The notes under the pieces are model-generated. The model made no database searches. It was not told the origin of the DNA and saw nothing but the letters and a program-made list of their open reading frames with translations. The position numbers and the translations under genes are program-made. A stretch of DNA of 64,000 nt from Vulcanimicrobium alpinum (GTDB lineage Bacteria > Vulcanimicrobiota > Vulcanimicrobiia > Vulcanimicrobiales > Vulcanimicrobiaceae), in the NCBI RefSeq assembly GCF_027923555.1, contig NZ_AP025523.1:2112484-2176483 (forward strand), read 5' to 3'. This document shows positions 25,851-48,081 of this stretch, one piece after another; the first letter of the stretch is position 1, and every line of letters starts with the position of its first letter.

Positions 25851-27167
25851 CAGGCCGATGAAAAATCGGCCGAGTTGATGTTGGCGTGACGGCGTTTTTC
25901 GCGTATTATAAGAGCAAGTCTCCTCATACCTTGGTGAGGTTGCGGCCGATGCGGACTCATGATGAGCAGCGTGCATCCGTTTGGACGACGTTGCAGCCGG
26001 AAGACACCGTGCCCGGCGATCATCCGTTGCGCCCGATGCGCGTGATGGTCAACGAAATTCTGCGCGAACTCTCGCCGGAGTTTTCCAAGCTCTACTCCCG
26101 ACGGGGCCGGCCATCGATCGCGCCGGAGAAGCTGCTGCGAGCCTTGCTGTTGCAAATGTTCTACTCGATCCGCAGCGAGCCGATGCTGCTGGAGCAGTTG
26201 CGTTACAATTTGCTCTTTCGTTGGTTCGTGGGCTTGAGCATGGACGACAAGATCTGGGACCCCTCGACGTTCAGCAAGAACCGCGATCGGTTCTTGAATG
26301 GCGAAATCTCCGAGCGGTTCTTCGCCGCCGTGGTCGAGCGGGCGCGTGCCGACGAACTGCTCTCGAACGAGCATTTCACCGTCGATGGGACGCTAATCGA
26401 GGCGTGGGCCAGCCACAAGAGCTTTCGGCCCAAGTCGGACGACGAACCGCCGACCTCGAGCGGCGGTCGCAACGAGGGCGTGAACTTTCGTGGCCGGCCG
26501 CGCAGCAACGAGACGCACGTCTCGAGTACCGATCCGGACGCGCGGTTGTACCGCAAGAGCAGCGGCGCGCCGGCGATTCTCGGCTATCTCGGACATGCTC
26601 TGATGGAGAATCGCAACGGCTTGATCGTCGGCGTGAAGACCACTCGCGCGACCGGGATCGCCGAACGCGAAGCAGCGCTGGAATTGATTCGCGGGGTCAG
26701 CGGAAGCAACCGAATCACGCTCGGCGCCGACAAGGCGTACGATACCAAAGACTTTGTCGAGGCGTTGCGAGCGCTCAACGTGACGCCGCACGTTGCTCAA
26801 AATACGACCCGTCGCCGCAGCGCGATCGACCGCCGAACCGTCCGCCATCCGGGCTACACGGTGAGTCAACGCAGGCGCAAGTTGATCGAGGAGAGCTTCG
26901 GGTGGGGCAAGACGATCGGCCGATTGCGCAAGGTGCATTTCCGCGGGCTTGATCTGGTCGGCGACATTGTGCGCTGGACGGCCGCGGCGTACAACTTGAT
27001 CAGGATACGCAATCTGAGGGCCGCGACATGATGCGAAGTGATGCTGACCCGAGGGGCGTTTTCGAGATGAACCGCTCGGCAACGGGCTTCGAGGGGTCCG
27101 CCGACCTCCCGAAAACCGTGCTGAACGGGCAGTTCGCGAACCACGCGCCGATTTTTTCACGGGGCTG
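25851..27167 (+). mobile_element. IS5-family insertion sequence, copy 1
   Basis: 1317 bases, flanked by CTAG on both sides (25847-25850 and 27168-27171), matching the 4-base CTAR duplication of IS5 elements. The ends are imperfect inverted repeats: CAGGCCGATGAAAAATCGGC at the left and CAGCCCCGTGAAAAAATCGG when the right end is read inward. It is nearly identical to copy 2, which lies inverted at 34211-35527. It is inserted in the left end of the IS110 element. Confidence 0.93.
25886..27031 (+). CDS. IS5-family transposase (copy 1)
   Basis: 381 residues. An InsH-type N-terminal domain ([40 protein letters not shown]) is followed by a DDE domain with Asp in [14 protein letters not shown], Asp in [14 protein letters not shown] and Glu in [14 protein letters not shown]. 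Start is GTG 25886; ATG 25949 ([10 protein letters not shown]) is an alternative. Full length with an intact triad. The protein is identical to copy 2 by eye. Confidence 0.93.
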   Translation: MTAFFAYYKSKSPHTLVRLRPMRTHDEQRASVWTTLQPEDTVPGDHPLRPMRVMVNEILRELSPEFSKLYSRRGRPSIAPEKLLRALLLQMFYSIRSEPMLLEQLRYNLLFRWFVGLSMDDKIWDPSTFSKNRDRFLNGEISERFFAAVVERARADELLSNEHFTVDGTLIEAWASHKSFRPKSDDEPPTSSGGRNEGVNFRGRPRSNETHVSSTDPDARLYRKSSGAPAILGYLGHALMENRNGLIVGVKTTRATGIAEREAALELIRGVSGSNRITLGADKAYDTKDFVEALRALNVTPHVAQNTTRRRSAIDRRTVRHPGYTVSQRRRKLIEESFGWGKTIGRLRKVHFRGLDLVGDIVRWTAAAYNLIRIRNLRAAT

Positions 27168-27185: not shown

Positions 27186-28139
27186 ATGAGCATGTTGGGC
27201 GTCGATATCTCTAAGGACACGTTCCACTGCTGCTTGCAACGCGGCGAGAAGCGCAGTGAGGCGAGTTTTGAGAACACGCGAACCGGCTTCAGAAAGCTTC
27301 GCAGTTGGTTGCGCACGCATCGCGCCCACGAGGTTCATGTGTGCATGGAGTCAACCGGGCCGTATTGGCGCAACTTAGCGGCGAACTTGCACAAAGCGAA
27401 AATCCGGGTGAGCGTGGTGAACCCGACGCGTACGGCATATTTTGCGAAGAGCCGTTTGCTGCGGACCAAGACCGATGCGGTCGACGCTCGAATGCTGGCC
27501 CAATTCTGCGCCTCCGAGCGCCCCGCGCTTTGGGAGCCTGATAGCGACGAAATCCTGTCCCTGCGCGGTTTGCTGGCGTATCGCGACCAGCTCATCGCGC
27601 AGCGTATTGCCCTTACGCAGATCGTGCAATCCGTCGCCGTCGGAGCAACGCTGCTCAAAATGAACGAAACGCATCTGGTCGGTATCGCGGAGATGGTCAA
27701 GCAGATCGAGTCGCAGATCCAAGGTGTTCTTTGCTCGGATGTCACGCTAAGCCGGAACGCGCAGCTTCTTCAGACCATACCAGGCGTCGCGTCCTTGACA
27801 GCGGCAAACGTGCTTGCGGAGTTGCCGGTGCATCGGCTCCATAGTGCCAAAGCCGCAGCGGCGTATGCCGGCCTTACGCCGGCAGAGCGGCAGTCCGGGA
27901 CCTCGGTGAAGGGCAAGCCGCGCATTTGCAAGACAGGCAACGCGAAGCTCCGGCGGGCACTCTACATGGCTGCCCTGACGGTAAAGCGCAAAGTCCCGGC
28001 CTTCAAGGAGCTCGCCGATCGCCTCGAAGCGCGCGGTAAGAGCGGCAAGCAAATCATCGTGGCGGTGATGCACAAGCTCGTGCGCCTGGCTTACTCGCTA
28101 CTCAAGAATCAGCGGCCCTATCAACCCGTATCGGCTTGA
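27186..28139 (+). CDS. IS110-family transposase (DEDD recombinase)
   Basis: 317 residues. The RuvC-like DEDD N-terminal domain has Asp in MLGVDISKDTFHCC, Glu in VHVCMESTGPYWRNL, and Asp residues in LRTKTDAVDARMLAQF. The Tnp20 C-terminal domain has LQTIPGVASLTAANVLAELP, AAAYAGLTPAERQSGTSVKG and the catalytic-serine region KTGNAKLRRALYMAA. Such enzymes recombine DNA guided by a bridge RNA. The ribosome-binding site (AGGGAAA, 27173-27179) is intact, but IS5 separates the gene from its native upstream region. Confidence 0.95.
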   Translation: MSMLGVDISKDTFHCCLQRGEKRSEASFENTRTGFRKLRSWLRTHRAHEVHVCMESTGPYWRNLAANLHKAKIRVSVVNPTRTAYFAKSRLLRTKTDAVDARMLAQFCASERPALWEPDSDEILSLRGLLAYRDQLIAQRIALTQIVQSVAVGATLLKMNETHLVGIAEMVKQIESQIQGVLCSDVTLSRNAQLLQTIPGVASLTAANVLAELPVHRLHSAKAAAAYAGLTPAERQSGTSVKGKPRICKTGNAKLRRALYMAALTVKRKVPAFKELADRLEARGKSGKQIIVAVMHKLVRLAYSLLKNQRPYQPVSA

Positions 28140-34210: not shown

Positions 34211-35527
34211 CAGCCCCGTGAAAAAATCGGCGCTTGGTTCGCGAACTGCCCGTTCAGCACGGTTTTCGGGAGGTCGGCGGACCTCTCGAAGCCCGTTGCC
34301 GAGCGGTTCATCTCGAAAACGCCCCTCGGGTCAGCATCACTTCGCATCATGTCGCGGCCCTCAGATTGCGTATCCTGATCAAGTTGTACGCCGCGGCCGT
34401 CCAGCGCACAATGTCGCCGACCAGATCAAGCCCGCGGAAATGCACCTTGCGCAATCGGCCGATCGTCTTGCCCCACCCGAAGCTCTCCTCGATCAACTTG
34501 CGCCTGCGTTGACTCACCGTGTAGCCCGGATGGCGGACGGTTCGGCGGTCGATCGCGCTGCGGCGACGGGTCGTATTTTGAGCAACGTGCGGCGTCACGT
34601 TGAGCGCTCGCAACGCCTCGACAAAGTCTTTGGTATCGTACGCCTTGTCGGCGCCGAGCGTGATTCGGTTGCTTCCGCTGACCCCGCGAATCAATTCCAG
34701 CGCTGCTTCGCGTTCGGCGATCCCGGTCGCGCGAGTGGTCTTTACGCCGACGATCAAGCCGTTGCGATTCTCCATCAGAGCATGTCCGAGATAGCCGAGA
34801 ATCGCCGGCGCGCCGCTGCTCTTGCGGTACAACCGCGCGTCCGGATCGGTACTCGAGACGTGCGTCTCGTTGCTGCGCGGCCGGCCACGAAAGTTCACGC
34901 CCTCGTTGCGACCGCCGCTCGAGGTCGGCGGTTCGTCGTCCGACTTGGGCCGAAAGCTCTTGTGGCTGGCCCACGCCTCGATTAGCGTCCCATCGACGGT
35001 GAAATGCTCGTTCGAGAGCAGTTCGTCGGCACGCGCCCGCTCGACCACGGCGGCGAAGAACCGCTCGGAGATTTCGCCATTCAAGAACCGATCGCGGTTC
35101 TTGCTGAACGTCGAGGGGTCCCAGATCTTGTCGTCCATGCTCAAGCCCACGAACCAACGAAAGAGCAAATTGTAACGCAACTGCTCCAGCAGCATCGGCT
35201 CGCTGCGGATCGAGTAGAACATTTGCAACAGCAAGGCTCGCAGCAGCTTCTCCGGCGCGATCGATGGCCGGCCCCGTCGGGAGTAGAGCTTGGAAAACTC
35301 CGGCGAGAGTTCGCGCAGAATTTCGTTGACCATCACGCGCATCGGGCGCAACGGATGATCGCCGGGCACGGTGTCTTCCGGCTGCAACGTCGTCCAAACG
35401 GATGCACGCTGCTCATCATGAGTCCGCATCGGCCGCAACCTCACCAAGGTATGAGGAGACTTGCTCTTATAATACGCGAAAAACGCCGTCACGCCAACAT
35501 CAACTCGGCCGATTTTTCATTGGCCTG
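34211..35527 (-). mobile_element. IS5-family insertion sequence, copy 2 (inverted)
   Basis: 1317 bases, the same length as copy 1, flanked by CTAA (34207-34210 and 35528-35531), again a CTAR-type 4-base duplication. By eye it differs from copy 1 at only a few positions: one near the 5' end (GGCCA versus GGCCG), one silent change in a Val codon, one in the 3' non-coding part and one near the 3' end. It interrupts the IS3 element. Confidence 0.93.
34347..35492 (-). CDS. IS5-family transposase (copy 2)
   Basis: 381 residues, the same protein as copy 1, with the InsH-type N-terminus and DDE residues ([24 protein letters not shown]). The only difference seen in the coding DNA is silent (GTA for GTG in VKT). 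Its recent duplication and intact ends imply current activity. Confidence 0.93.
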
Positions 35528-44601: not shown

Positions 44602-45819
44602 TTACGCGCCGATCGGCGCGAGCTCGCGTTCCGCGGCGACCGCCGTGCGCAGGGCGTCCGCTTTGTCCGTCCGCTCCCACGGCAGGTCGAGGTCGGGGCG
44701 GCCGAAGTGGCCGTACGACGCCGTCTGCTTGTAGAGCGGACGACGCAAGTCGAGGTTGGCGATGATCGCCGCCGGGCGCAGGTCGAAGTGCGCCTTCACG
44801 AGCTCCGCGATCCGTTCTTCCGGGATCACGTTGGTACCGAACGTCTCGACGAGCACGCTGACCGGGTGCGCGACGCCGATCGCGTAGGCGACCTGGATCT
44901 CGCAGCGCTCGGCGAGCCCCGCCGCGACGACGTTCTTGGCGACGTACCGCGCCGCGTACGCGGCGGAGCGGTCGACCTTGGTGGGATCCTTGCCGGAGAA
45001 GGCGCCGCCGCCGTGACGGGCCATCCCGCCGTAGGTGTCGGCGATGATCTTTCGTCCGGTCAGACCGGCGTCGCCCTTCGGGCCGCCGATCACGAACCGC
45101 CCGGTCGGGTTCACGTAGATCTTCAGCGTCTCGTCGCGCAGTTCGCGCGGGATGACCGGATCGATCACGTGCTTGATGACGTCGGCGCGGATCTGTTCGA
45201 GCGTGACGTCGGGATCGTGCTGGGTCGAGATGACGACCGCGTCGACGCGCACCGGCTTGTGTCCGTCATACTCGACGGTCACCTGCGACTTGCCGTCGGG
45301 CCGCAGATACGGGAGCGTCCCGTTCTTGCGCACGTTCGCCAGCAGGCGGGTGAGGTCGTGCGCGAGCGTGATCGGCAGCGGCATGAGCTGCGGCGTCTCA
45401 CGACACGCGAAGCCGAACATCATCCCTTGATCGCCGGCGCCGGTGAGCTCGAACGGATCGCGGTCGCCGCTCTCCTTTACTTCGAGCGAGGCATCGACGC
45501 CCATCGCGATGTCGGCCGACTGCTCGTCGACCGAGACGCTGACGCCGCAGGTTTCGTAGTCGAAGCCGACGGCCGAGCGGTCGTAGCCGATCTCCTTGAT
45601 CGTGTCGCGCACGATCTTCGGGATGTCGACGTAGGTGGACGTCGTGATCTCACCGGCGATGTGGATCTGGCCGGTGATCGCGAACGTCTCGCACGCAACG
45701 CGGCCCTGCGGATCCTTTTCAAGGATCGCGTCGAGGACGGCGTCGGAGATTTGGTCGGCGACCTTGTCGGGATGTCCCTCGGTCACGGACTCCGACGTGA
45801 ACAGACGGCGGTAGGCCAT
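44602..45819 (-). CDS. metK: S-adenosylmethionine synthase (MetK)
   Basis: 405 residues with all landmarks: [18 protein letters not shown] (ATP/methionine site), [16 protein letters not shown] and the P-loop-like [19 protein letters not shown]. It makes SAM from methionine and ATP. ATG 45819 ([10 protein letters not shown]). It lies downstream of ahcY across a palindromic spacer, so methyl-donor supply and SAH removal are probably co-regulated. Confidence 0.97.
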
Positions 45820-46046
45820 TTATCGTGCCTCCGCTTCGCTACGGCACGGAGGTACCGTTGAAGCCTGTTCCGTCAGCGACTCCGTTGCGCTCCGTCGATG
45901 ACGAGTCTCCGCGTGTTTTTGTGCAAAAACACGCGGAGACGCACCGGAGCGCAGCGCAGGTGCTCCCGTCGCCGCACCGCGACGACGGCCATCAAACATA
46001 CCTTCACGCCGTAGCAAAGCGGAGGCGTTCTGCTGAGCACAAAGCA
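45820..46046 (-). promoter_or_regulatory. Palindromic ahcY-metK spacer, candidate leader RNA
   Basis: 227 bases without a gene. Nested pairing is visible: an outer 19-base pair (45828-45846 with 46010-46028, one mismatch), a middle GCGCTCCG/CGGAGCGC pair, and a central perfect 16-bp stem (GTCTCCGCGTGTTTTT, 45905-45920, with 45925-45940) with a 4-base loop. A small CGTCGC/GCGACG stem lies at 45967-45984. No known SAM or SAH riboswitch consensus was recognised. Confidence 0.5.

Positions 46047-48081
<2,035 letters not shown>

Follow-up and report, generated by a model that had tools for sequence, protein, structure and literature searches.

Within the 64,000-nt stretch of the Vulcanimicrobium alpinum genome analysed here (the window, whose numbering is used for all spacer positions), ahcY and metK lie in this order on the minus strand and are separated by a 227-nt spacer that carries nested palindromes. 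A first-pass annotation had considered several readings of this spacer, among them a SAM- or SAH-sensing RNA, an inserted palindromic (MITE-like) element and a processed hairpin between two messages; which of these accounts for the spacer, and how metK is translated behind it, are the questions considered here. There is strong evidence that the spacer is one copy of a dispersed mobile palindromic repeat. The fuller explanation, in which such an element restored a Shine-Dalgarno sequence between ahcY and metK, is held with good confidence.

Structure of the spacer and its hairpin units

The three nested inverted pairs of the first-pass annotation were all recovered. The outer pair, GCCTCCGCTTCGCTACGGC (45827-45845) with GCCGTAGCAAAGCGGAGGC (46008-46026), spans 19 nt with one mismatch and can be extended to 42 nt at 76%; the middle pair joins GCGCTCCG (45887-45894) to CGGAGCGC (45945-45952); and the central pair, GTCTCCGCGTGTTTTT/AAAAACACGCGGAGAC, forms 16 bp around a 4-nt loop (45905-45940). 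Additional hairpins occur in both outer arms (e.g., 45824-45848) and in two inner segments (45941-45963 and 45966-45988). Folded as RNA, the 227-nt spacer gives z = -7.6 for the plus strand and z = -8.7 for the minus strand, which is the mRNA and metK sense; since none of 200 shuffled sequences folded as well, a chance origin of the fold is dismissed. The parts of this copy are given in Table 1.

Table 1. The window copy of the element, its parts and the adjoining genes
Feature	Position	Strand	Remarks
metK (SAM synthetase)	44602-45819	-	gene downstream of the spacer
Dispersed palindromic element, one copy, about 205 bp	45824-46028	.	ends approximate; aligned to the six full palsa_1479 copies and the second full V. 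alpinum copy; missing at this junction in most relatives
End unit: hairpin CGTGCC/GGCACG around TCCGCTTCGCTAC	45824-45848	-	GTA-GC-GAA-GC-GGA on the minus strand
GGAGG (CCTCC on the plus strand), putative Shine-Dalgarno of metK	45828-45832	-	8 nt before ATG; anti-Shine-Dalgarno duplex -9.5 kcal/mol
Inner unit/hairpin	45871-45903	.	diverged
Central hairpin GTCTCCGCG...CGCGGAGAC	45905-45940	.	outer 6-9 bp common to copies; inner stem replaced, pairing kept
Inner unit GCACC-GGAGCGCAGCGCA-GGTGC	45941-45963	+	
Inner hairpin CCGTCGCCGC/GCGACGACGG	45966-45988	.	window copy only
Other end unit ACGCC-GTAGCAAAGCGGA-GGCGT	46006-46028	+	outward GGAGG
ahcY (SAH hydrolase)	46047-47387	-	gene upstream of the spacer; stop codon about 18 nt from the element

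Each full copy of the element consists of terminal inverted repeats, each of which is a small hairpin, usually further inner hairpins, and a central hairpin. The small unit, about 25 nt long, has a 5-6 bp stem around GNAGCGNAGCGGA; folding with DNA parameters gives a stem, a 3x3 internal loop, a GC stem and a 3-nt loop. Across an alignment of 22 distinct units from V. alpinum and a second species of the genus, palsa_1479 (see below), the loop GTA-GC(GNA)GC-GGA is nearly fixed while the stem covaries. Paired cells amount to 89% (80% when shuffled), double-changed stem cells to 22 (7.3 when shuffled, 0/500 shuffles as high) and the covariation score to 0.276 (0.099 when shuffled, 0/500), the cells not being independent because related units are pooled; slid registers of the alignment yield 0-3 double-changed cells. 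Central hairpins stay paired though the inner stem varies by copy (e.g., TGTTTTTG/CAAAAACA and CGGAATTCC/GGAATTCCG); the diverged copy between atpA and atpG has no recognisable GTCTCCGCG start to its central hairpin.

The unit head holds GC-GNA-GC with a variable N, as do the d(GCGNAGC) mini-hairpins, which are extraordinarily stable DNA structures (Tm of 78 C for GCGAAGC; cited in PMC4686876). The mini-hairpins as presented in that source are described in vitro, whereas here the motif recurs in a natural repeat.

Copies in two genomes and empty sites in relatives

The spacer was used as a query against its own genome and 40 relatives. Full-length matches outside V. alpinum came from only one of the 40, the same-genus Candidatus Eremiobacterota palsa_1479 (genome 83% complete), whose full copies, six in number, measure about 190-310 bp and are accompanied by several fragments. 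In V. alpinum itself a second full copy separates atpA from atpG in the ATP synthase operon (3384902-3385186; L076 1401-1688), and a half copy lies at 1354474, next to the stop codon of a gene that, judged by its protein sequence, encodes a Clp-like ATPase. The suggestion of an inserted MITE-like element is supported, at a low copy number in V. alpinum (two full, one half) and with neither a transposase nor a clear target duplication detected. The copies are diverged (65-80%), which indicates that activity of the element in V. alpinum is old or absent. As far as searched, the element is confined to a few species of the genus.

In one palsa_1479 copy (L080 1465-1772), which is about 305 bp long, the two halves form an inverted repeat of about 90 bp, and between them stand two central hairpins whose loops, ACCCA and TGGGT, are complementary. 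About 27 further own-genome matches, to query positions 146-171, were set aside as a chance match within an insertion-sequence transposase gene. A 381-aa insertion-sequence transposase is encoded twice in the window (25886-27031, plus strand; 34347-35492, minus strand), and the chromosome has about 27 near-identical copies of it; beside the first window copy lies a 317-aa open reading frame (27186-28139) that resembles an IS110-type transposase.

The gap between ahcY and metK is 0-9 nt in 23 of the 29 readable junctions, and within the genus most species have the two genes separated by 0-2 nt. Wider gaps are found only in V. alpinum (227 nt), palsa_1479 (217 nt), two genomes of another family of the order (175 and 174 nt), G001 (116 nt) and G007 (48 nt). 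The atpA-atpG gap is 292 nt in V. alpinum versus -1 to 15 nt in relatives (36 nt in one), and at five other palsa_1479 sites relatives align over the junction without an insert of similar size. Tight spacing of ahcY and metK in most relatives, together with the empty sites of the other copies, argues that the spacer is an insertion and not a conserved leader.

The other wide spacers were rejected as copies: the inserts of G001 and G007 bear no significant likeness to the element, and the two from the other family (f2; L102 and L103) have a different inverted repeat that is unrepeated in those genomes. These single-copy spacers of 174-175 nt, with their own inverted repeat of about 21 nt, are 89% identical between the two species and are possibly metK leaders.

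The metK copies of V. alpinum and palsa_1479 align with a score of 137 in opposite orientation versus 108, shuffled sequences reaching at most 60. In a four-gene tree well-supported branches lie between the two species, which are not sisters; a two-gene tree gave no resolution. Opposite orientations in non-sister species suggest repeated insertion: two insertions at one junction would fit better than one insertion with precise losses, and a single ancestral insertion, against which both the four-gene tree and the orientations speak, is less likely. Between the ahcY stop codon and the element, a segment of about 17 nt (window 46029-46046; L081 2379-2396) looks somewhat alike in the two genomes (..GCTC..CAGA), although the copies themselves appear oppositely oriented, and CAGA flanks a further element copy.

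Putative Shine-Dalgarno sequences at the element ends

In relatives the ahcY stop adjoins the metK start, and the metK Shine-Dalgarno sequence (GAGGG, GGAGG or GAAGG) lies within the last ahcY codons; in V. alpinum and palsa_1479 this ahcY-internal site is more than 200 nt from metK. The end of the element puts GGAGG 8 nt (V. alpinum) and 7 nt (palsa_1479) before the metK ATG. The V. alpinum copy between atpA and atpG, which starts right at the atpA stop codon, puts its GGAGG 7 nt ahead of the GTG that starts atpG; a spacing of 7-8 nt to the next start codon is therefore common to all three within-operon copies. Outward GGAGG is present at both ends in all eight full copies (8/8), so orientation should not matter. 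The three within-operon copies share a value of -9.5 kcal/mol for pairing with the anti-Shine-Dalgarno sequence; the empty sites tried range from -3.1 to -10.0.

This layout supports replacement of the lost Shine-Dalgarno sequence of the next gene by the element end, whose GGAGG ribosomes would presumably use, and makes a ribosome-binding site built into the element probable. It is to be set against this explanation that selection would favour a GGAGG before metK whatever its origin, and that prediction places this GGAGG within a paired hairpin, though the same is predicted for the site of one relative with an empty junction; since the predicted pairing extends to that relative, no claim is made about the strength of ribosome binding.

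The proposed course of events begins with a small non-autonomous palindromic mobile element, its hairpin units with d(GCGNAGC) heads nested around a central hairpin, which would have inserted between the formerly adjoining ahcY and metK at a time when it was presumably mobile. Insertion would have parted metK from the Shine-Dalgarno sequence in the last ahcY codons; because both ends finish in outward GCGGAGGC, either orientation would leave a GGAGG 7-8 nt ahead of the next start codon, and the end-borne GGAGG would restore a ribosome-binding site for the downstream gene. The hairpin would uncouple translation of metK from that of ahcY, and may insulate or stabilise both halves of the message.

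Relation to known elements and wider occurrence of the hairpin head

Control of metK by a SAM- or SAH-sensing riboswitch, which the position between SAH- and SAM-pathway genes and the strong structure might suggest, is scarcely credible: the spacer has no Rfam match, at gathering thresholds or at E<=5, it is missing in most relatives that have the same gene pair, and the same element lies at atpA-atpG and at other unrelated genes. What it shares with the SAM and SAH riboswitch families of Rfam is genomic neighbourhood only; it differs in lacking a model match, in a locus that is not conserved and in having copies at unrelated genes, and this part of the first-pass annotation is not supported. 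REP hairpins are known to function in mRNA processing and stabilisation. Recruitment of the element as such a hairpin, giving differing levels of ahcY and metK, is compatible with a mobile origin and would draw on the very stable fold inside an operon and on the presence of the element at two tight operon junctions in V. alpinum; it is fairly unlikely, as presence varies among species and the central hairpin lacks a terminator tail. A scan for intrinsic terminators (a GC stem followed by a T run) gave only a weak 5-bp match, whose T run is inside the central hairpin.

The remaining alternatives concern the kind of mobile element. REPs and BIMEs are GTAG- and CGTC-tagged palindromes (PMC3733652, PMC8266576), and the element resembles them as a small extragenic palindrome, often just past stop codons or near gene ends, with hairpin units in both orientations, GTAG in the unit and no clear target duplication. 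That it is a classical REP, GTAG-tagged and mobilised by a RAYT, or a BIME is nonetheless unlikely: GTAG lies beside the head, inside the stem at the internal loop and not at the hairpin foot, the units are nested into one palindrome of about 200 bp, copies are few (exact loop motifs number 4 in V. alpinum and 21 in palsa_1479), and Y1 transposases (PF01797, the family that includes REP-associated RAYTs) are absent from both genomes, the latter 83% complete. Descent as a MITE from an ordinary DDE insertion sequence that these genomes have since lost is somewhat unlikely. The long terminal inverted repeats, size of about 200 bp, lack of a gene, dispersed copies and empty sites in relatives are those of MITEs (e.g., MITEAba12, PMC6382973), but the internal units covary, no related autonomous or parent insertion sequence was found by end sequence in V. 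alpinum or the incomplete palsa_1479 genome, and no clear target duplication was found at C34, the cleanest site, the remaining sites being too diverged. Neither a transposase nor any other gene lies between pairs of element ends in V. alpinum or palsa_1479 (again at 83% completeness). We infer mobility from the distribution of the element only, since no transposase between the ends, no Y1 transposase and no clear target duplication were found. By the tests run, the palindromic mobile element represents a new family of small mobile palindromes that has REP-like and MITE-like traits and is a full member of neither group; the literature searched, whether for the unit sequence or for repeats as a source of Shine-Dalgarno sites, held no prior description of it.

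The head extends beyond the genus. Many phyla contribute to the at least 119 stretches in which GCCGTAGCGNAGCGGAGGCG is found, and 67 of these are left after removal of similar flanks; their unrelated flanks pair mutually at 2.82 of 5 positions versus 2.29 for shuffled partners (sd 0.11, 0/2000), the first position being fixed on one side by the search pattern. Among 23 motif-bearing genomes, most show a modest excess of the loop alone over its reversed control, and the only clear excess is in a Terrimonas genome (G162, record L177), with 23 exact loop motifs GTAGCGNAGCGGAG versus 0 of the reversed control. A link between the loop motif and RAYTs was rejected, Y1 transposases being present in only 12 of the 23. 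Because genomes were chosen for having a match, the occurrence across phyla should be read as a lead, not as a survey. It is improbable that GTA-GC(GNA)GC-GGA hairpins are widespread mobile repeats of single-stranded DNA, spread in many phyla by an unrecognised enzyme that reads the head and joined in this genus into composite elements with symmetrical ribosome-binding-site ends that land repeatedly at tight operon junctions.

For the operons concerned, the element suggests how an insert of 200 bp can be tolerated at a shared stop/start junction, namely by bringing its own Shine-Dalgarno sequence in both orientations. The clean pairs of filled and empty sites offer a test system for the effects of repeats on operon expression, and the recurrence of the d(GCGNAGC) head on unrelated stems in different phyla may point to a common mechanism of recognition or formation.
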